Program-made: the position numbers and the translations under genes
Shown here: positions 11,599 through 57,655 of the stretch, piece by piece
Numbering within the stretch: position 1 is the first letter of the stretch
Layout: each line of letters starts with the position of its first letter
Notes under the pieces: generated by a model
Seen by the model: the letters and a program-made list of their open reading frames with translations, nothing else
Told to the model about the DNA's origin: nothing
Databases searched by the model: none
Origin: Mugil cephalus
Lineage: Eukaryota; Chordata; Actinopteri; Mugiliformes; Mugilidae
Reading direction: 5' to 3'
NCBI RefSeq assembly: GCF_022458985.1
Contig: NC_061785.1
Coordinates: 1,042,130 to 1,106,129 of the forward strand
Length of the DNA: 64,000 nt

Positions 11599-12364
11599 GT
11601 AATTTGGAGCCGGTTCTGACCAGGCAGCTACAAACCCTTTAACCACGTCCACCAGACAAACCCAGTACTGAAGCGTCCAGTGTCTAGAGTCTAACCACAT
11701 GATTCTACATCAGCTATGAACCACATGGAGACTGGATTCATAGAATCTGAACCTTTAGTCTCCATCTAGTGGTGTAATGGTGCTACTACAGACAGAGAAC
11801 GTGAGCTTTGGTGGCTGGTGTTCAGACTCATCCATTAGTGACGATTACAGTGAAGCAGGCTTAAAGCAGCACGGCATGCTGGGACATAAGGAGCGAGAGG
11901 AGTGGTGGGCTCTGCTCACCTGTCCACCAGGAGAACCTCCCATTGGTCGACTCCAGGACCCGCGGGTTAAGAGGCTTATGTGAGAGTGAATGACGCCTGG
12001 ATGAGAGGATTTAGCTTTTAGTTTGTTTAAATAAAACGTGGATCTGTGTCCTGCTGCAGAGACGAACGTCATGTCAAGTTATTACTGTTAGAAACAGAAA
12101 GAAAGAAGAGCTGCACCTTTAATTAGACCAGGCCGTCAGCAGAAAGAAGGAAACACAAAGTGACCTCCTTCCTTTGGTTCGTGTGAACCCACAATGAGTC
12201 CTGGTCCCGTTAAAGACCAGATACTGACCAGAAGAGGAGTTTAAACCTTGTTCTTTTGTTCTTTTCTTTAACTGAACTAAATCACAGAATCTGTTGGAAT
12301 GAAATGAACTAATTAATTAATTGATCTGGTGTCTCCTCCCTCCTCCCTCTCGCCCTTCGAGCAG
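11599..12364. other. hlf intron 3
   Basis: 766 bases with no repeat array and no further exon that I can see. The open frame at 11777-11983 shows no family resemblance and lacks splice-site logic. Confidence 0.7.
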
Positions 12365-12580
12365 GATGACAAATACTGGGCTCGTCGTAGGAAGAACAAC
12401 GTGGCGGCCAAGCGTTCGCGAGACGCCCGGCGGCTCAAGGAAAACCAGATCGCCATCCGGGCCGGGTTCCTGGAGAAGGAGAACTCGGCTCTGAGGCAGG
12501 AAGTGGCCGACCTGAGGAAGGAGCTGGGGCGAACCAAGAACGTCCTGGCCAAGTACGAGGCTCAGCACGGGCCTCTGTGA
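12365..12580 (+). CDS. hlf: hlf exon 4 (basic leucine zipper and stop)
   Basis: Residues 231-301. The basic region reads [20 protein letters not shown] with the bZIP signature Asn...Ala-Ala...Ser-Arg. It is followed by the zipper, where leucines occur at heptad spacing in [20 protein letters not shown], and the protein ends in KYEAQHGPL, the normal HLF terminus. The acceptor is TTCGAGCAG and the stop is TGA at 12578-12580. Small changes against mammals (for example NVAAKR for NMAAKR) are conservative. Confidence 0.96.
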
Positions 12581-21309: not shown

Positions 21310-21735
<426 letters not shown>

Positions 21736-29146: not shown

Positions 29147-29623
29147 TCAGGCCACGCAGTACCCCTGTCCGGCCATGAGCGTGGTCTGGCTCTCCCGCCG
29201 CTTGTCGCTCTTCTTCTTCTGTCGGAGCCTCCAGCAGATGGCGCTGGAGCCCAGCAGGCCCAGCCCAGCGGACAGCAGCACCAGCCCCAGCACCGAGATG
29301 TTGGAGCCGTGGGAGTTGAAGGCGTAGGCCACGGCCGTCACCACCACGCCGGCAATGAGCACCACCACGGCGAACGGGATGATGCAGCGGTAGCAGGACA
29401 TCTCCGCACCGCCGGTCGCTGCCGTCAGTTGGACCTCGTTGACGTGGGGGACGCGGGGGACACGTGTCGTCACGATGACACTGTCCTTCCTGGGCATGGA
29501 CCGAAGCTTCTCGGCGGAGATGGATGCCGGCATCTTGGGGGCGCTCCTCTGGATCCTGGCGCCACCTTTGATGTGGAAGTCGTCCGGCATGGTGATCTTA
29601 CTGGCGAGGAACAGATGGGCCAT
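29147..29623 (-). CDS. tmem100: tmem100, transmembrane protein 100
   Basis: TMEM100 is a two-pass membrane protein. In mammals it acts downstream of BMP9/ALK1 in endothelium and modulates TRPA1/TRPV1 in sensory neurons. The conserved core is clear: VNEVQLTAATGGAEMSCYRC, then a first membrane helix IIPFAVVVLIAGVVVTAVAY (about residues 81-100), the loop FNSHGSNISV, a second helix (about 109-131) and the basic RRESQTTLM tail. The ATG at 29623 gives 158 residues against 134 in human; the extra residues are all N-terminal and poorly conserved. The frame stays open upstream to a TTG, but no ATG lies there. A likely acceptor (TGTTTACAG, near 29666) just upstream suggests a 5' UTR intron. Stop TGA at 29147-29149. 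Confidence 0.9.
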   Translation of the reverse strand: MAHLFLASKITMPDDFHIKGGARIQRSAPKMPASISAEKLRSMPRKDSVIVTTRVPRVPHVNEVQLTAATGGAEMSCYRCIIPFAVVVLIAGVVVTAVAYAFNSHGSNISVLGLVLLSAGLGLLGSSAICWRLRQKKKSDKRRESQTTLMAGQGYCVA

Positions 29624-31168
29624 CTTCACGCTGGTGTCAGCCAATCAGAGAGCAGCTAGCTGTAAACACAGAGTCACAGTTAGCACGCTAACGCAGTGGA
29701 CGATGAATCCAAGGACGACCAGAAGAGATGTTTCAGATTCAGTCAAACTGATCAGGTTAGTGTCACTGGCTGTGTTTCCATTAAACCTAGAATGTACAAA
29801 ACCTGAATATCTGGATATAAACTGGGAATGGAAACATCTACATCTCTAAAAACATCTAAAACATCTCTTCTCTCATGAGGAGGTTTGTCAAACGTATCCA
29901 AATAAAAGTTTATCTCTGAAGAAGATGATGCAGGGGGTCATGTGACCAGTTCATCTGAATTCAACTTCCTCAATGTGAATTATGGGATATGGCCAGATGA
30001 GACTTTACCAGAGTTACAGCTCATTTCAGCTCAAACACGTACAAAGAGCAACTGGAATTTATCAAAATTTCAAGAATATCACTTTTATATTGAGAGAAAC
30101 TGGAATGGAAACACAGCTAGTGATCATGTTACTGGACGGACTTTAACTCTGGTCGACTGGGACGTCTCCTCACGTCTCCGTCTACAATGACTCTTGATTT
30201 CTGACACGACCTGATGTGTCTCAGCACCAGATCATAGAGACTGAAGGTTTCTCGATGCTAATGGAAACGCTAAAGCGGATGCTAATGATGACATTTCAGG
30301 TGATGCTAGAGACAGCGCTAACGGTGATGGTGATAGCTTGGTTGTTAGCAACCTTTAGCAGATCAATGATTAACTAAACTCTATGGACAATAATAAATAA
30401 AAGATTGAAATAGGTTTTTAATTCATAGAAATCCTGTTAAAATATGTTAAATGTTTCTGAGATGAAACTGTGACGAGCTCTGAGAGGAAGAAACCTTCCT
30501 CTGATCACGGAGCATCATTCTCGTGACGTGTTTTCTCAGATCAGCTGAGGAACAAACCACCTCATTAACAGATGTGTGAAGCAAACGGAGACAAACAGCA
30601 GAAACAGCAGCTCTGCTCTAACTTCATCTACAGCCTGGATCAACAACGACACGGAGGCGTCTCTCAGGTGAGAAGAAAACACATTCACAGCATCATCCTG
30701 TCCAACATCATGAGGACGTGTCTCGTCTAGTTTCTCAGTCTGTCTGACTCCGTGCATCCACACTTCGTCTCTTATTTTAGACCTTTCAAACACCTCAAAC
30801 ATTTGATTTTAACCTGAGACAGAAGGGAAGTAAACCCAGATATCTGATCTGATCTGATCTGAGATGTTTGAGGCTGCAGCTGAAATAAATCCAGAGTAAA
30901 AGTACTCGGATACTTTGGTGAAGTGACTCACTGTGAGAGGAGGCTCAGCTCCATTCCTTCCAAGGTTTCCTCTTTCAGTCGTTGTTTCCTCTCGGAGCCT
31001 CCTCATCGCTCTGCATCGTCCCGACTGCAGGGAAGAAACAGGGAATATGTCTATCAATAGAAGAACGAGGAGGGGGGACTGCACCCTCCCTCCCTCCCTC
31101 CCTCCCCCAACACCTCCTCCTACCAGTTTTAACTCTTTCCCTCCTCCGGTCCACATTCAACTCTCGTC

Positions 31169-35142: not shown

Positions 35143-35337
35143 TCCTAGCTCCTCCTAGCCTCCTAGCTAATAGCAGCTCCTCCTAGCCTCCCAGCTAATA
35201 GTAGCTCCTCCTAGCCTCCTAGCTAATAACAGCTCCTCCTAGCCTCCTAGCTAATAACAGCTCCTCCTAGCCTCCTAGCTAATAACAGCTCCTCCTAGCC
35301 TCCTAGCTAATAGTAGCTCCTCTTAGCCTCCTAGCTG
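35143..35337. repeat. 28-bp minisatellite CTCCTAGCCTCCTAGCTAAT
   Basis: About six and a half copies of a 28-bp unit (AGCTCCTCCTAGCCTCCTAG plus CTAATAAC) lie about 470 bp downstream of the TBP-like gene's stop codon. Confidence 0.9.
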
Positions 35338-35804: not shown

Positions 35805-35881
35805 TCACTTCCTCCTGAAGTTCCTCAGGATCGGATAGAGGGCGTGAAACGCTTCGTAGACGTTGTCCAACGTTTTAGCCC
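35805..35881 (-). CDS. TBP-family gene, exon 8 (C-terminal helix and stop)
   Basis: It reads AKTLDNVYEAFHALYPILRN FRRK and stops at TGA (35805-35807). The TBP counterpart is [20 protein letters not shown] FRKTT. The acceptor is TTAAAATCCAG. Confidence 0.9.
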
Positions 35882-36444
35882 CTGGATTTTAACACAGACT
35901 TCACAGTTAGAACAAGAAATCAGATGAGATGTTGATGTGGTACCTCTAGAACCTCATCAGGTACCACCAGTACTCACATGTAAAGAACATCTAGAACCTC
36001 CACAATAACGAACACAGAATCAGGAAAATAACAGAACCCCTTAATTAACAAATTCCAAAAGGCGAAACCTTTGCCCTTATTCAACACCTTGTGGATTTTC
36101 ATGACCTGGATGACTGAGAACCTTCACAGACATAATTAATGTATCAAACTTCAACCTTAAAACCTCTTCAGTGACCACTCAGTCCACTCAAAGGAACCCT
36201 AGAACCCAAACAGAAATGCTACAGGAAAATGACGACTTAAAGGTCCTACAGAACCTCCTAGAACCTCTTTACTGTTCTTCTTGCGTTCATTACAGTAACT
36301 TTAAGAACCTCCCACCCAGGAACCTCTAAAGTCTTTCTATACAGTGTGGATGACGCCCTCAGTGCGATCAGATCTGATTAATCCAGGGTACTGGTCATAT
36401 TATTAATGATGTTTGGTGTGTGGGTGGAAGTTCGGCTTATTTAC
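35882..36444. other. Last intron of the TBP-family gene
   Basis: 563 bases. It contains many short AGAACCTC words (ctagaacctc, tcagaacctc) repeated loosely. No exon seen. Confidence 0.6.
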
Positions 36445-36536
36445 CGCACATATTTATCTTCCCAGAGGGAAAGACGGTCACGTTGACGCCTGGTATGATC
36501 TTGTAGAAGAGGCCAGGAAACAGCTCTGGTTCATAA
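36445..36536 (-). CDS. TBP-family gene, exon 7 (second repeat)
   Basis: It reads SYEPELFPGLFYKIIPGVNV then TVFPSGKINMCG. The TFIIB-contact residues Glu284, Glu286 and Leu287 of human TBP (in YEPELF) are conserved, as are the two intercalating phenylalanines of this repeat (Phe288 and Phe305). One residue is missing against TBP and the strand IKPRIVLLI is replaced by IPGVNVTV. Acceptor GTCCACAG, donor TGCG|GTAAAT. Confidence 0.9.
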
Positions 36537-36708
36537 CTGTGGACAGAGACGGTGAATGTGTCCAGATTTCACCAATATCACATATAATAATGTTTCTCTT
36601 TCCGTGGAGCTCGGCCTCTCATCTCCAGGCTTCGTGCTAAGCTAGGCTAGGCTGTGTCTGGATACACACTAGATGTAATAGCTGGTTGATGATTGTGGCT
36701 CATGAAAC

Positions 36709-36873
36709 CTGCAGAGCTGATGGTGGCTGGTGGCCAGTTGGTCCAGACAGACTGGGAAGGTGCTGCAGGTGGCCACCATGTTCCGGATCTTAAAGTCCAG
36801 GGAGGCGACGGGGAAGCCGAGCTTCTGCACTATGCGGGCGAACTTCCTGGCCGCCAGCAGCGACTGCTCCACG
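36709..36873 (-). CDS. TBP-family gene, exon 6 (helix and second-repeat start)
   Basis: It encodes [20 protein letters not shown] and [18 protein letters not shown], clearly the TBP sequence [38 protein letters not shown]. After that it is one residue shorter than TBP and more diverged ([17 protein letters not shown]). Acceptor TTTCATCAG, donor TGCAG|GTTTCA. The frame continues to the left through the donor, which is why a longer open frame can be read. Confidence 0.92.
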
Positions 36874-36964
36874 CTGATGAAATACCGAGACAACAGGAGG
36901 TTGTTCACTGTCCTAAAATGTCATCACTGGACAGTTCAGACCCTGGAGGTGAGTCCAGACGGAC

Positions 36965-37056
36965 CTCTTGGCTCCGGTACAGACCAGATTTCCGTTTTTG
37001 TAGATCAAGGCTGTGGCTCTCGGCTCACGAATCCTCATGACGAGCGCCTTGTAAAT
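36965..37056 (-). CDS. TBP-family gene, exon 5 (first repeat)
   Basis: It reads [20 protein letters not shown] then [10 protein letters not shown], aligned without gaps to TBP [30 protein letters not shown]. The two phenylalanines that TBP inserts into the TATA minor groove from this repeat (human Phe197 and Phe214) are both Tyr here, while Arg205 is kept. Acceptor GTTTCAG, donor AAGAG|GTCCGT in phase 2. Confidence 0.9.
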
Positions 37057-37189
37057 CTGAAACACAACAGGAAACTGAAAGCTTCCTCGGTTCGATCAAA
37101 ACCAGGATAAGCCTCATAACTGGGATATTTATGTCCAAGCAAACACACTCCACATGTCCTCTGGGTCCTATGATTCAGGCTCTGTGTAC

Positions 37190-37277
37190 CTTCGGGTTGT
37201 ACTCTACGTTCCAAGACTTGCAAGCGATTAAGTCCAGGTCCAGAGAGCAGCCCAGCTTCACGGTGGAGATGACGTTC
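37190..37277 (-). CDS. TBP-family gene, exon 4 (core, first strands)
   Basis: It encodes NVISTVKLGCSLDLDLIACK and SWNVEYNPK, aligned to TBP's [20 protein letters not shown] and ARNAEYNPK. The acceptor is TTTACGTCCAG and the donor AAG|GTACAC. The residues matching human TBP Ala184, Asn189 and Glu191, known TFIIA contacts, are retained. Confidence 0.88.
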
Positions 37278-38456
37278 CTGGACGTAAACACAGCAAACAT
37301 GAGAATGTTAAAGCGCGCTGTTAGAAGGATGTTTGCAGGAAAGTTTAAACTTCTAAGCCACCGCAGAGGAGAAACCTTAAAGTGTTCAGATAAACCCGAA
37401 GAAGCTGCAGATCAGCTGGTAAACGGTAGCAGGTTGTAGCAGGTAGCTCCACCTGGATTTCATCATGATTTCAATTATGTCACGTACGCTTCTCAACAAA
37501 CGCCTCAATCGCTGTTAATTTCTCGTCCTTTAAACTTATTTCCTTTTCCGACAGATGTAACAGCTGAATCTAAACATGTCGCTCCTGCGATGGTTCTGTC
37601 CACCACCACATTATCTGCAATCTGATTGGACCAGGCAGACGGAACCAAGAACCCACCAGAAGGAACTACAGAACCTCTAGAAGCTCCTGAGTTATGACTC
37701 AGACCACGGGTTGATTACCCCTCAGAGCATCTGGGCAGCAGATCTTTGCAGGAACTGGATCAGTTCCCACATGGAGAGACTCCAGAAGATCTGACTGCAG
37801 GAACCCTTTAGAACCAAGAAACCACCAGGAAGTAGTTTCATTGAAAAACAATGAAATACAGTTTGGCAGCTCTTTGGTTCAGGAGCAATAAAAAATAAAA
37901 ACTATAGCAGCTATTCACAATAAAACAATATATACAATAAAAGCTATTATATTTAAAACAGTCAACAATTAAACTATAGTGTAAATATAGGTTTCTGTAT
38001 GTAGGTTAGTGTAAATGTGCCTACTGAGTGTAGGTGGACTGGGGAATAAATATAAATATAAATATGAGGGTTATTGAAGGGGAGGGTGAAGGTGTGAGGG
38101 ATTTGATGACTTGAGGGTAGAAGCTGCTTTTTAGTCTATTAGTTCTGGACTAGAGGAACCTCCTCGGATTCTCCCATACGGTCTCTAAATCACCGTTCTC
38201 TCAGGACGTTCTCGGTTCCAGCAGCTTCAGATGAATTCAGATGTAAAGAACACCTAGAACCTCCTCCACTGAGAACACCGAAACTTACACCCGAATAGAA
38301 ACTCCTAGCTAAAAAAACTCTCCCTAGCATCTGTCTCTGAGAAAAACGTAATTCCTGGAGCTAAGGGAAACTAACAACATCTTCCCCTATATTGGAACTC
38401 TCAAGCCTCCAGGGAGTCGGTGCTGGGATCTGATCAGTGCAGAACTGAAACGATAC
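37278..38456. other. Intron 3 of the TBP-family gene
   Basis: About 1.2 kb without repeat arrays. No exon recognised, though a missing linker exon of the TBP-like protein could hide here. Confidence 0.5.
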
Positions 38457-38580
38457 CAGACATGCTTCCTGTGAAGGTCGTCGTCCATGGTGACTACGTA
38501 TCCGGAACAGTGTGTTATGGGGGAAAACTGCGTCCAAGGACCCGTCTCCAGGGAGCTCGGCTGCTGTGGGATTCTGGGAG
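38457..38580 (-). CDS. TBP-family gene, exon 3 (tentative)
   Basis: With the acceptor GACTACAG and the donor TCTG|GTATCG this exon joins exons 2 and 4 in phase and reads PRIPQQPSSLETGPWTQFSP followed by about 20 more residues. An earlier acceptor (TTTCAG, exon from 38596) gives a different frame that does not join exon 4 in phase with this donor. The exon would supply the linker before the core. TBP and TBPL2 have a Thr-Pro-Met linker there, and I do not see that here. A transcript is needed to settle the exon. Confidence 0.4.
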
Positions 38581-39405
38581 CTGTAGTCATCCTCGGCTGA
38601 AACAAACCAAAGATGCCGTCTATGAAGGTTCATCCAGGTCATGGCGTATCCACACAGTGTGTTAGAAAACTGCCCACGTCTTTAGAGTTAGTGGCTCAAA
38701 CCTGACCCATGACTTCATCCAGACCAAACTATGTTTATCGTCCAGTGTCGTTTTTAACCTCATATCTAACTTGTTAGTGTTTCACATCCATGTAAACACA
38801 GGATTAAATTTAATTTTTGGTCCAATGACCTTTCCATCTAATGAAAACAGTGTAAATTGAGCCAGATTTGCTCCAGAGACAAACCTAAAACATCTCCTAC
38901 GATCCGTAGGTTCATGCAACTAATATTCTGAGCAGGTTAATATTTGACCCATAAAACCACAGATGTCACTTTACCAAAATGGTGAAAAATAGTTTTTCTT
39001 TGTTAAAATATCATGAAGCCTCGTCCCCCAAAAAAGACGAAAATGTACTTTTTACACATTTAACTTGCAAACGGGCCAAATTTGACCCCGTTCACACCTG
39101 GAGACTGGAGCCTATGACTGATGATGGGTCTCAACCATCCGTGGGGACAGAGAACAGGGACCAACAGCCCCCAGTATCTAGACGTTAATGGACCAGTTTC
39201 TGATGGTTTCACCCACAGAGTTTCTATTGAAACCTCTTTAAACTTCCTCTTAGATCTGAGGAAGCGTCTTCTCTAAAGTTGACTTTTTAAACTCGTTCTG
39301 GATCTAAACCAAAGACATCGTCGTCAGGACAGACGCACCCAGAATCCGTTCACCGTGTCCTCGCGCTGTATGTGACTAAATATTATTAAATTTAAACCCT
39401 CGTAC
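38581..39405. other. Intron 2 of the TBP-family gene
   Basis: No array and no recognised exon. A short imperfect duplication (CACAGTGTGTTAGAAAAC near 38653 versus ACAGTGTGTTATGGGGGAAA near 38508) lies across the tentative exon 3. Confidence 0.5.
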
Positions 39406-39517
39406 CCGACTCTTCCTCCGAGTTTGACCCGTCCAGCATCAGAAGCTCATCAGGCAGCAACTGGAAGAACGATTTGACACCAGGGTCTTTGTTTTCCTCC
39501 TTCGTCCTCGGTGAATC
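39406..39517 (-). CDS. TBP-family gene, exon 2
   Basis: After the acceptor CTGCAG it continues in phase 0 with DSPRTKEENKDPGVKSFFQL, then LPDELLMLDGSNSEEES, and ends in phase 1 at GTCGG|GTACGA. It is acidic, low in aromatic residues and probably disordered, like the N-termini of TBPL2 proteins. No similarity to a domain is visible. Confidence 0.65.
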
Positions 39518-39904
39518 CTGCAGCCACAGGCCAGACTGAGATAAAGGCACCGGCAAACAAACTGCTTCCTGTTTGGTTCATGAAATAATCTATTATCCCT
39601 AAACACTGTCTCTATGTGTTGTACAAAGTCTAAGTCTGAGGTAGCTGTCGTTTTAGAAGGATGACACAGTAAATATATTCTTGAGAGGAGAAGAGTTTGG
39701 GTTTCAAACATCTACACTGAGAAAACTTCATGTTCTGTGTCTGAGAGTTTGCTGCAGGATTCATTTATATTTTTCTATATATATTTTTCAGCGTTTCTAC
39801 TTTTTTTTTTATCAAATTCTTTTTCGGTACATACGTGGGATGAATAAACGTCTTACGTTGTGAGACTAAACTAGAACAGAAGAAAGTGACACACGTTTAC
39901 TCAC

Positions 39905-39952
39905 GCTGGCGATGAACTTATCGAAGTAACGCTCCAACTCACTCGCCTCCAT
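39905..39952 (-). CDS. TBP-family gene, exon 1 (start)
   Basis: The gene encodes a TATA-box-binding-protein relative, so a nuclear core-promoter factor that should act with TFIIA and TFIIB. This exon reads MEASELERYFDKFIAS and ends in phase 0 at AGC|GTGAGT. The acidic/aromatic start recalls TBPL2 (TBP2/TRF3) rather than TBP, which opens with a Gln-rich region. Eight exons (39952 down to 35805) join in phase to about 265 residues; the last five carry the saddle-shaped core. Exons cut at the same places as in TBP, so it is not a retrocopy. It is much more diverged from TBP than normal fish TBPL2 would be. I leave the symbol empty. The two N-terminal exons that follow are less certain than the core. 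Confidence 0.75.
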
Positions 39953-45356: not shown

Positions 45357-45604
45357 GTGAGACAGGAACCCTGAAAAACCAGGTCCTCCACATGAAAACC
45401 GAGACCTCCAGGAGACTGTGAAGGTTCTCAGGTTTCCTCCAAGTGTTCAGCTCCAAACGTCTGGTGCAGACTTTAGGTTTATTTCACCTGGAGGTCACAT
45501 GACGAGAGTCTGGTAGTAGAACTAGAGACTAGAGTTGGTGAGAACCAGATCATCTCCCAGACCTCCAGGTTTGAGTCTCTGGATGAGTCGTGACCTCCTC
45601 ATGT

Positions 45605-45678
45605 GGCCGGTTAGCTCAGCTGGTCAGAGCGTGGTGCTAATAACACCACGGTCATGGATACGACCCCCGTACGGGCCA
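45605..45678 (+). tRNA. tRNA-Ile(AAT)-like gene with a degenerate T arm
   Basis: The sequence GGCCGGTTAGCTCAGCTGGT at the 5' side, with a clean A box, and a perfect anticodon stem TGGTG/CACCA around CTAATAA (anticodon AAT) match vertebrate tRNA-Ile. The 3' end CCCGTACGGGCCA pairs with the start as in that tRNA. No CCA beyond this is encoded, as normal. The T arm differs: expected GGGTTCGATCCC reads TGGATACGACCC, losing the TTC of the T loop, and its stem has an A-C mismatch. A TTTT terminator follows at 45685-45688. It is a tRNA gene or a recent tRNA pseudogene. Confidence 0.75.
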
Positions 45679-45684
45679 ACCAGC

Positions 45685-48064: not shown

Positions 48065-49496
48065 CCTATTATCCATCCTTACATCCTTACATCCTCACAT
48101 CCTTACATCCTTACATCCTTACATCCTCATATCCTTACATCCTTACATCCTTACATCCTCATATCCTCATATCCTTACATCCTTACTACAACCACAGCTA
48201 CAAGGAGCCTATTATCCATCCTTACATCCTTACATCCTCACATCCTTACATCCTTACATCCTCATATCCTTACATCCTTACATCCTTATATCCTTACATC
48301 CTTATATCCTTACATCCTTACATCCTTACATCCTTACATCCTCATATCCTTACTACAACCACAGCTACAAGGAGCCTATTATCCATCCTTACATCCTTAC
48401 ATCCTTACATCCTCATATCCTTACTACAACCACAGCTACAAGGAGCCTATTATCCATCCTTACATCCTTACATCCTCACATCCTTACATCCTCACATCCT
48501 TACATCCTTACATCCTTACTACAACCACAGCTACAAGGAGCCTATTATCCATCCTTACATCCTTACATCCTTACATCCTCATATCCTTACATCCTTACAT
48601 CCTTACATCCTCATATCCTTACATCCTTACATCCTTATATCCTTATATCCTTACATCCTTACTACAACCACAGCTACAAGGAGCCTATTATCCATCCTTA
48701 CATCCTTACATCCTTACATCCTTATATCCCCCATCCTTACATCCTCATATCCTTACATCCTTACATCCTTATATCCTTACATCCTTACATCCTTATATCC
48801 TCCATCCTTACATCCTTATATCCTTACATCCTTACTACAACCACAGCTGCAAGGAGCCTATTATCCATCCTTACATCCTTACATCCTTACATCCTTACAT
48901 CCTTATATCCTTACATCCTTACATCCTTACATCCTTACATCCTTATATCCTTACATCCTTACATCCTCATATCCTCATATCCTTACTACAACCACAGCTA
49001 CAAGGAGCCTATTATCCATCCTTACACCCTTATATCCTTACACCCTTATATCCTTACACCCTTATATCCTTACATCCTTACATCCTTACATCCTTATATC
49101 CTTACACCCTTATATCCTTACACCCTTATATCCTTACATCCTTATATCCTTACATCCTTATATCCTTATATCCTCACATCCTTATATCCTTACATCCTTA
49201 CATCCTTACATCCTTATATCCTTACATCCTTACATCCTTATATCCTTACATCCTTACATCCTTATATCCTTATATCCTCACATCCTTATATCCTTATATC
49301 CTTATATCCTCATATCCTCATATCCTCATAACCTCATATCCTTACATCCTTATATCCTTATATCCTTATATCCTCATATCCTCATATCCTTATATCCTTA
49401 CATCCTTATATCCTTATATCCTTACATCCTCATATCCTTATATCCTTATATCCTTACATCCTTACATCCTTACATCCTTATATCCTTCCTTATATC
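48065..49496. repeat. 8-bp minisatellite (ATCCTTAC)n with a punctuating spacer
   Basis: The unit is ATCCTTAC, with variants ATCCTCAC, ATCCTCAT and ATCCTTAT. In the first kilobase it is interrupted seven times by a near-identical spacer (TACTACAACCACAGCTACAA then GGAGCCTATTATCC), at 48185, 48351, 48423, 48516, 48661, 48835 and 48986. After about 49020 the spacer is absent and the variants change (ACACCC, TATATCC). The three-codon-by-eight-base frame stays open for 539 codons (HPYILTSL repeats), which is not a protein. Confidence 0.95.
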
Positions 49497-56209: not shown

Positions 56210-57655
56210 ACCAGCTTCAGTCTCAGCTTCATCTTCAGCTTCAGTCTCAGCTTCAGTCTCAGTCTCAGCTTAAGCTTCAGTCTCAGCTTCAGTCTCAGCT
56301 TCAGTCTCAGTCTCAGCTTAAGCTTCAGTCTCAGCTTCAGTCTCAGCTTCAGTCTCAGCTTAAGCTTCAGTCTCAGCTTCAGTCTCAGCTTCAGCTTCAG
56401 CTTCAGTCTCAGCTTCAGTCTCAGCTTCAGCTTCAGTCTCAGCTTCAGTCTCAGCTTCAGTCTCAGTCTCAGCTTCAGTCTCAGCTTCAGCTTCAGCTTC
56501 AGCTTCGGTCTCAGTCTCAGTCTCAGCTTCAGCTTCAGTCTCAGCTTCAGTCTCAGTCTCAGTCTCAGCTTCAGACTCAGCTTCAGTCTCAGTCTCAGCT
56601 TCAGTCTCAGCTTCAGCTTCAGCTTCAGCTTTAGTCTCAGTCTCAGCTTCAGTCTCAGCTTCAGTCTCAGCTTTAGTCTCAGCTTCAGTCTCAGCTTCAG
56701 TCTCAGCTTCAGCTTCAGTCTCAGCTTCAGTCTCAGTCTCAGCTTCAGTCTCAGCTTCAGCTTCAGTCTCAGCTTCAGTCTCAGCTTCAGCTTCAGCTTC
56801 AGTCTCAGCTTCAGTCTCAGCTTCAGCTTCAGCTTCGGTCTCAGTCTCAGCTTCAGCTTCAGTCTCAGCTTCAGTCTCAGTCTCAGTCTCAGCTTCAGAC
56901 TCAGCTTCAGTCTCAGTCTCAGCTTCAGTCTCAGTCTCAGCTTCAGCTTCAGCTTTCAGCTTTAGTCTCGTTCAGTCTCAGCTTCAGTCTCTTTGGCTTC
57001 AGTCTCAGCTTCAGTCTCAGTCGCTCAGCTTCTCAGCTCAGTCTCGCTTTAGTCCTCATCTCAGCTTCAGTCTCAGCTTCAGCTTCAGTCTCAGCTTCAG
57101 TCTCAGTCTCAGCTTCAGTCTCAGCTTCAGCTTCAGTCTCAGCTTCAGTCTCAGCTTCAGTCTCAGCTTCAGTCTCAGTCTCAGCTTCAGTCTCAGTCTC
57201 AGCTTCAGTCTCAGTCTCAGCTTCAGCTTCAGCTTTAGTCCCAGTCTCAGCTTCAGTCTCAGCTTCAGCTTCAGTCTCAGCTTCAGTCTCAGCTTCAGTC
57301 TCAGCTTCAGCTTTAGTCTCAGCTTTAGTCTCAGCTTCAGTCTCAGCTTCAGTCTCAGCTTCAGTCTCAGCTTTAGTCTCAGCTTCAGTCTCTCAGTCTC
57401 AGCTTCAGCTCAGCTTCTCTAGCTTCAGTTAGCTTCAGCTTCAGTCTGTCAGCTTCTCGTCTCAGCGCTTCAGTATCAACGCTTCAGTCTAGCTTCAGTT
57501 CAGCTCAGTCTCAGCTTCAGTCAGTCTCAGTCCAGCTTCAGCTCACTCAGTCTTCGTCAGTCTCAGCTTCAGCCTCAGTCTCAGCTTCAGCTTCAGCTTC
57601 AGTCTCAGCTTCAGTCTCAGTCTCAGCTTCAGCTTCAGTCTCAGCTTCAGTCTGT
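56210..57655. repeat. CAGTCT/CAGCTT hexamer array, 1.4 kb
   Basis: Some 240 hexamers of two kinds, CAGTCT and CAGCTT (with rare CAGCTTTAG or CGG changes), mix in no fixed order. An inner block near 56400-56530 recurs near 56750-56860. A disordered part at 56960-57060 and 57390-57560 has lost the period. The open Phe-Ser-Leu-Ser frame (56153-56965) is the translation of the hexamers. Confidence 0.95.

Follow-up and report, generated by a model that had tools for sequence, protein, structure and literature searches.

A probable fourth TBP-family gene in Mugil cephalus, derived from tbpl2 and altered on its DNA-binding face

We analyzed a stretch of 64,000 nucleotides of Mugil cephalus DNA (contig NC_061785.1, positions 1,042,130 to 1,106,129; hereafter the window), the minus strand of which carries a gene of the TBP family. 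The coding sequence runs from an ATG at 39952 to a stop codon ending at 35805, exactly the interval that an earlier sequence-only reading had marked as a divergent TBP paralog. We consider it very probable that the gene is real, that its core is complete and that it adds a fourth member to the family in this genome. Judged from exons 1–3, intron positions, DNA matches and synonymous sites, it arose from tbpl2 by DNA-based duplication. The fourth gene may use a different promoter signal, or it may be losing function. The parts of PMC3142196, PMC7221094 and PMC7755920 that were available give the vertebrate TBP family three members. No description of a fourth vertebrate paralogue was found in the titles and abstract openings of the best open-access matches, which is no proof of absence.

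The TBP core and its descent from tbpl2

The five spliced core exons (exons 4–8 in Table 1) form a single open frame of 170 amino acids without stop or frameshift. All five have AG acceptors, and the four that need a donor have GT. The core matched human TBP chains with an E-value of 7e-63 and was aligned over residues 1–169 to solved TBPs. Pfam family PF00352 (TBP) was found in two stretches (E 2.2e-50), and the complete two-repeat saddle core that had been claimed for these exons is thus present. The genome searched comprises 634.8 Mb in 24 contigs, with the window on contig 16. Ten PF00352 matches were obtained from the 15 best candidates scored, and they fall at four loci including the window gene. 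The other three, identified by reading their exons, are tbp on contig 3, tbpl2 on contig 17 and tbpl1 on contig 21, all with ordinary, intact cores; the contig 3 core is the same as the human TBP chain, judged by eye. The window gene is therefore additional to the usual set, as had been proposed. A protein search with its core returned the same loci and one match on contig 23 with an E-value of 1.06, which was taken as chance. Chance assembly of the exons themselves was ruled out by the alignment to TBP chains, the genome-wide PF00352 loci and the alignment of the N-terminal exons. The core is identical to that of tbpl2 at 98 of 170 positions (57.6%), to tbp at 100 of 170 (58.8%) and to tbpl1 at 63 of 168 (37.5%); tbpl2 and tbp agree at 161 of 172 (93.6%).

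The N-terminal exons point to tbpl2 as the parent. Exon 1 (MEASELERYFDKFIAS) aligned to exon 1 of tbpl2 (MDESALEHYFDDSIAN) with a score of 43, which none of 2000 shuffles reached, while the score against tbp exon 1 was reached by 1070 of 2000. For exons 2 and 3 the scores against tbpl2 were reached by 29 and 4 of 2000 shuffles, respectively. Taken together exons 1–3 scored 86 against tbpl2 compared with 37 ± 6.5 for shuffled sequences (0 of 2000), and against tbp 558 of 2000 shuffles did as well. The DNA of the exon 3 region scored 49 against tbpl2 over 38626–38542 (shuffled 21 ± 3; 0 of 500). In a DNA comparison with the tbpl2 and tbp loci, four stretches of the fourth gene matched the former and one matched the latter. 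The exon 1 match to tbpl2 was 79% over 57 base pairs (bp), and that of the segment from exon 5 through the intron to exon 6 was 69% over 345 bp.

Synonymous sites and introns gave the same picture. Third-position sites shared only with tbpl2 numbered 43 and those shared only with tbp 13, an excess reached in 3 of 5000 resamplings of codon-usage composition. The distance at fourfold sites was 0.54 between the fourth gene and tbpl2 (18 of 47 sites differ), 1.59 between the fourth gene and tbp, and 1.4 between tbpl2 and tbp (43 of 69). The core introns as well as introns 1 and 2 match those of tbpl2 in position and phase, and tbpl1 has an extra intron. Since the introns were kept, the duplication was DNA-based; their occurrence at the same core positions rules out a processed retrocopy.

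Results from the core are less favorable to this origin. Third positions in the A/T state alone gave counts of 10 for tbpl2 and 5 for tbp, a non-significant difference (p 0.30), and at the 12 core positions where tbp and tbpl2 differ the fourth gene agrees with tbp at three, with tbpl2 at two and with neither at seven. Codon log-likelihoods (lnL) for grouping the fourth gene with tbpl2, tbp and tbpl1 were −1944.18, −1945.67 and −1942.01. The tbpl1 grouping is best by 2.2 units, but its tbpl1 branch is saturated and at its bound; the core-only codon tree as a whole is saturated, with the three topologies within 4 lnL units. Core amino acids and codon likelihood thus do not by themselves support descent from tbpl2. 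Descent from TBPL1 was ruled out by intron layout and residues, despite its best-scoring codon-likelihood tree.

The sequence-only reading had set its claim against placement inside ordinary tbpl2. The gene does derive from tbpl2, yet the ordinary tbpl2 is still found elsewhere in the genome. A relocated ordinary tbpl2 is refuted: the N-terminal exons are of tbpl2 type, but contig 17 holds a separate, conserved tbpl2, the core of which is 93.6% identical to that of tbp and has all 15 TATA base contacts. Near this gene lie an F-box frame (E 2e-5), which we take to be fbxo34-like, and a frame resembling ATG14, the E-value of which (9e-4) falls short of the Pfam cut-off. The available text of PMC4236578 places fbxo34 and tbpl2 together in teleosts. 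The window gene does not have this position with fbxo34; the conserved contig 17 tbpl2 sits there. Transposase-like and reverse-transcriptase-like frames, their translation judged by eye, also occur near the contig 17 gene (L015 2592–3662; L012 909–1310).

DNA-binding face, docking residues and constraint

Residue numbers are those of human TBP in its 339-residue form. Codons and alignment agree that the fourth gene encodes Tyr at 197 and 214, both by TAC, and retains Phe at 288 and 305. Alignment also confirmed the retention of the TFIIA residues A184, N189, E191 and R205 (4 of 4 named contacts, the list being that of the sequence-only reading) and of the TFIIB residues E284, E286 and L287 (3 of 3). 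The unchanged runs of at least six residues in the core are MRIREPR, VCTGAKS, VQKLGFP and SYEPELFPGL, the last of which holds the TFIIB-contact glutamates whose role is given in the accessible part of PMC7221094. The saddle strand reported as one residue shorter lacks K297 before PGVNVTVF. A second single-residue loss lies in CST-FP, giving two one-codon core indels relative to tbp apart from the C-terminal end. At 64 positions, lost K297 among them, tbp and tbpl2 agree and the fourth gene differs.

It had been overlooked that, beyond the shortened strand, the C-terminal half of the DNA face is altered as well, by the five substitutions I292F, V301N, L303T, V311N and T313C. The 15 TATA base-contact residues quoted in the available part of PMC12209930 were mapped onto human numbers by residue identity. 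The fourth gene keeps nine of them and has V169I, F197Y, F214Y, L303T, V311N and T313C at the others, while tbp and tbpl2 keep all 15 and tbpl1 keeps 7 of 15. The earlier proposal that the protein bends DNA less at one end named the N-half Tyr pair and the kept contacts correctly, but it is too narrow: with six of 15 base contacts altered across both repeats, it is more plausible that both halves have changed their DNA preference or no longer bind TATA. According to the available text of PMC5809078, simulations of Ala mutants indicate that the loop Phe residues (197/288 here) are required for the full kink, and in that of PMC7221094 the binding of TATA is influenced when Phe at the 214-type position is replaced by Tyr.

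The reading that we favor, on which we are evenly balanced, is that of a retained tbpl2 duplicate which would still dock TFIIA and TFIIB and whose DNA preference would have shifted. The shift is suggested by F197Y and F214Y at both N-half wedge sites combined with I292F, V301N, L303T, V311N and T313C in the C-terminal groove-binding sheet. A tbpl2 gene would have been copied, introns included, into the interval between tmem100 and the presumed ankfn1. The product would fold as a TBP saddle, with the unchanged SYEPELFPGL stirrup as the docking site for TFIIB and the kept N-lobe contacts as that for TFIIA, and would nucleate initiation by RNA polymerase II where the TATA-like element of a promoter is other than TATAAA. 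Going solely by tbpl2 descent, its likely site of action would be the growing oocyte or early embryo.

The alteration of both N-terminal wedge Phe residues and of L303, V311 and T313, together with the kept TFIIA and TFIIB residues, could instead describe a TBPL1-like protein. Such a protein would not bind TATA stably; its protein contacts would recruit TFIIA and TFIIB to TATA-less promoters, or sequester them as a brake on tbpl2 and tbp. The number of base contacts kept, close to that of tbpl1, fits this explanation, but L212, V220, V259 and F288 are kept in the fourth gene and altered in tbpl1, and the replacement of Phe by Tyr is a mild one. We regard this alternative as rather doubtful.

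The ratio of nonsynonymous to synonymous substitution rates (dN/dS), proposed earlier as a check on the core, was far above that of the relatives. A four-gene codon model gave 0.57 on the fourth-gene branch and 0.043 elsewhere (lnL −1944.18 versus −1964.88 for a single ratio). Fixing the branch at 1 cost only 1.09 units (lnL −1945.27), and the branch is thus indistinguishable from 1. In a three-gene model dN/dS was 4.2 and fixing it at 1 cost 0.26 units; across models and trees the estimate was unstable, ranging from 0.57 to 4.5. The core appears to be either under strongly relaxed constraint or partly under positive selection.

A dN/dS indistinguishable from 1 also fits decay: the tbpl2 copy would have been maintained for a time and would now be on the way to losing its function, either untranslated or unneeded. 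Several further observations count against a retained gene with a retuned DNA face. Base-contact positions are kept at 9 of 15 and other positions at 91 of 155 (p 1.0), the contacts being no better kept than the rest, a pattern that agrees with relaxed constraint no less than with retuning. Retention of the named docking contacts discriminates little, as tbpl1 retains three of the four for TFIIA and all three for TFIIB. Of the five helix-2 basic residues selected for comparison one, R231, is lost. The tbpl2-type exon 3 donor has been lost, the PXT/IIPQLQ stretch of tbpl2 is unrecognisable in the fourth gene in either splice version, and the ambiguous splicing of exon 3 leaves room for recent decay. 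Against decay stand the core without stop or frameshift, its intact splice dinucleotides, and the preferential retention of family-conserved residues: positions at which tbp and tbpl1 agree are kept at 52 of 66 and others at 48 of 105 (p 1.7e-5). When dN/dS was fixed at 1, the fitted rate was 0.3 substitutions per site; in a neutral simulation at this rate the core stayed stop-free in 3.7% of cases. Under pure neutrality a stop-free core together with 18 intact core splice bases would occur with a probability of ca. 2e-4 at this rate and 2e-3 at 0.2 substitutions per site, figures that exclude frameshifts. We consider decay possible, though on balance unlikely.

If the retained-duplicate reading is true, the altered DNA face and kept docking residues would make this gene a natural experiment on the evolution of core-promoter recognition and would allow one to test which residues of the saddle are truly necessary for reading TATA. 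A decaying gene would instead show the extent to which a TBP saddle may diverge after duplication.

Gene model and neighbourhood

Eight exons had been proposed, and an open frame does run through them from ATG to stop, but the boundaries of exon 3 are uncertain and the eight-exon transcript is a possible, predicted one. Version A of exon 3 (38596–38542) has the better acceptor and a weak donor, GTCCTT; version B (38619–38457) has a weaker acceptor and the donor GTATCG. Both keep the frame, giving a product of 248 or 284 amino acids, and MTPMTPMTPMTP of tbpl2 is absent from both. The donors of exons 5 and 6 are weak, similar to tbpl2's own by rough splice scores. Dispersed repeats that match many contigs (40 of 1031 candidates scored) occupy parts of introns 2 and 3 (39088–38650 and 38149–37836). 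A 28-bp minisatellite of 6.8 copies with 95% matches lies at 35147–35336, ca. 470 bp downstream of the stop codon.

Table 1. Exons of the fourth TBP-family gene and its downstream neighbour (window positions)
Feature	Position	Strand	Basis
Exon 1, MEASELERYFDKFIAS, donor GTGAGT	39905..39952	-	Aligns to tbpl2 exon 1 of the same genome
Exon 2, contains LPDEL common to tbpl2; phases 0 and 1, matching tbpl2	39406..39535	-	Alignment, frame
Exon 3 region, two in-frame versions, contains DYSSQN	38457..38619	-	Alignment to tbpl2 exon 3
Exon 4, core NVISTV..EYNPK	37190..37277	-	DNA 83% identical to that of tbpl2 along 98 bp
Exon 5, holds Y197 (37053-37051) and Y214 (37002-37000)	36965..37056	-	Open core frame
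Exon 6, covers the convex helix region and the beginning of the second repeat	36709..36873	-	Open core frame; tbpl2 DNA match
Exon 7, with unchanged SYEPELFPGL (codon of the first Ser divided between exons 6 and 7); I292F, V301N, L303T, V311N, T313C	36445..36536	-	
Exon 8, with stop codon	35805..35881	-	Open core frame
tmem100 open frame, downstream neighbour	29147..29644	-	Pfam TMEM100 E 7e-50 (the one frame with a family match among 8 scanned in the window)

The gene had been placed between tmem100 and ankfn1. The former is in the window, while an ankyrin-repeat frame, which by its position we take to be ankfn1, was identified only past the window end (one of four frames scanned matched a family). 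Such a gene block is described around noggin1 in the available part of PMC10869764. Motifs of ankfn1 had no match inside the window, nor had those of mmd. A bZIP exon at 12356–12565 (bZIP_2 E 9e-19) is presumably of hlf type, going by a motif, and a short membrane-protein frame at 21355–21735, without a Pfam match, we assume to be smim36. A lone predicted tRNA-Ile (AAT) gene at 45604–45682 may be part of a repeat element, and simple arrays at 48074–49487 (8-bp unit) and 56212–57653 (12-bp unit), each longer than 1.4 kb, create long spurious open frames. An Rfam scan of the window gave nothing at gathering scores. Relatives of exon 6 were sought in bacterial and archaeal genome contigs and in viral contigs, and none were found.

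Comparison with known TBP variants

With TBPL2 (TBP2, TRF3) the fourth gene shares the core intron positions, the phases of introns 1 and 2, homologous exons 1–3 (LE.YFD..IA, LPDEL, DY.SQ) and the named TFIIA and TFIIB contacts. It differs in its low core identity to tbpl2, in the six altered base contacts and in lying on another contig with other neighbours. The available parts of PMC3142196 and PMC7755920 describe a TBPL2 core that shares ca. 92–95% of its residues with TBP and does not differ from it at any DNA contact. The fourth gene, with 58.8% identity to tbp and 9 of 15 contacts, falls outside this description, while its N-terminal exons and intron phases are of TBPL2 type, with an ambiguous exon 3 end.

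TBPL1 (TLF, TRF2) resembles the fourth gene in its altered N-half wedge residues and in keeping E284, E286 and L287 in the stirrup. Core identity is only 37.5%, and tbpl1 has a gap at F197, His at F288, an extra intron and just 14 residues before the core. The Trp that the available text of PMC7221094 gives for TBPL1 at the F214 site is found in this genome's tbpl1. None of Trp at this site, the lack of a long N-terminal domain and the extra intron is seen in the fourth gene. Giardia TBP likewise has Tyr at the F197 equivalent and many replaced base contacts, but it is only 19–22% identical to other TBPs, comes from a host without TFIIA and TFIIB homologues and binds single-stranded DNA (available part of PMC12209930). 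TRF1, an insect gene mostly associated with Brf1, was set against the fourth gene by description.

Altered-specificity yeast TBP, the substitutions of which we take to be I194F, V203T and L205V, was compared after adding 98 to the yeast numbers, an offset derived from the aligned chain ranges. All three positions are altered in the fourth gene, as I292F (the identical residue), V301N and L303T; the fourth gene differs in being natural, in two of the three replacements and in its many further changes. In the available text of PMC10005294 three second-repeat substitutions let TBP use TGTAAA. The overlap at three of three positions is suggestive and not proof, since 41% of the core has changed and tbpl1 also differs from tbp at 292, 301 and 303. 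Changes at positions used in laboratory altered-specificity TBPs raise the idea of a natural vertebrate TBP with re-coded specificity, which would recognize a non-canonical element, TGTAAA-like or otherwise, via ordinary TFIIA and TFIIB and would provide a parallel germ-line core-promoter code in this fish lineage; we judge this improbable.

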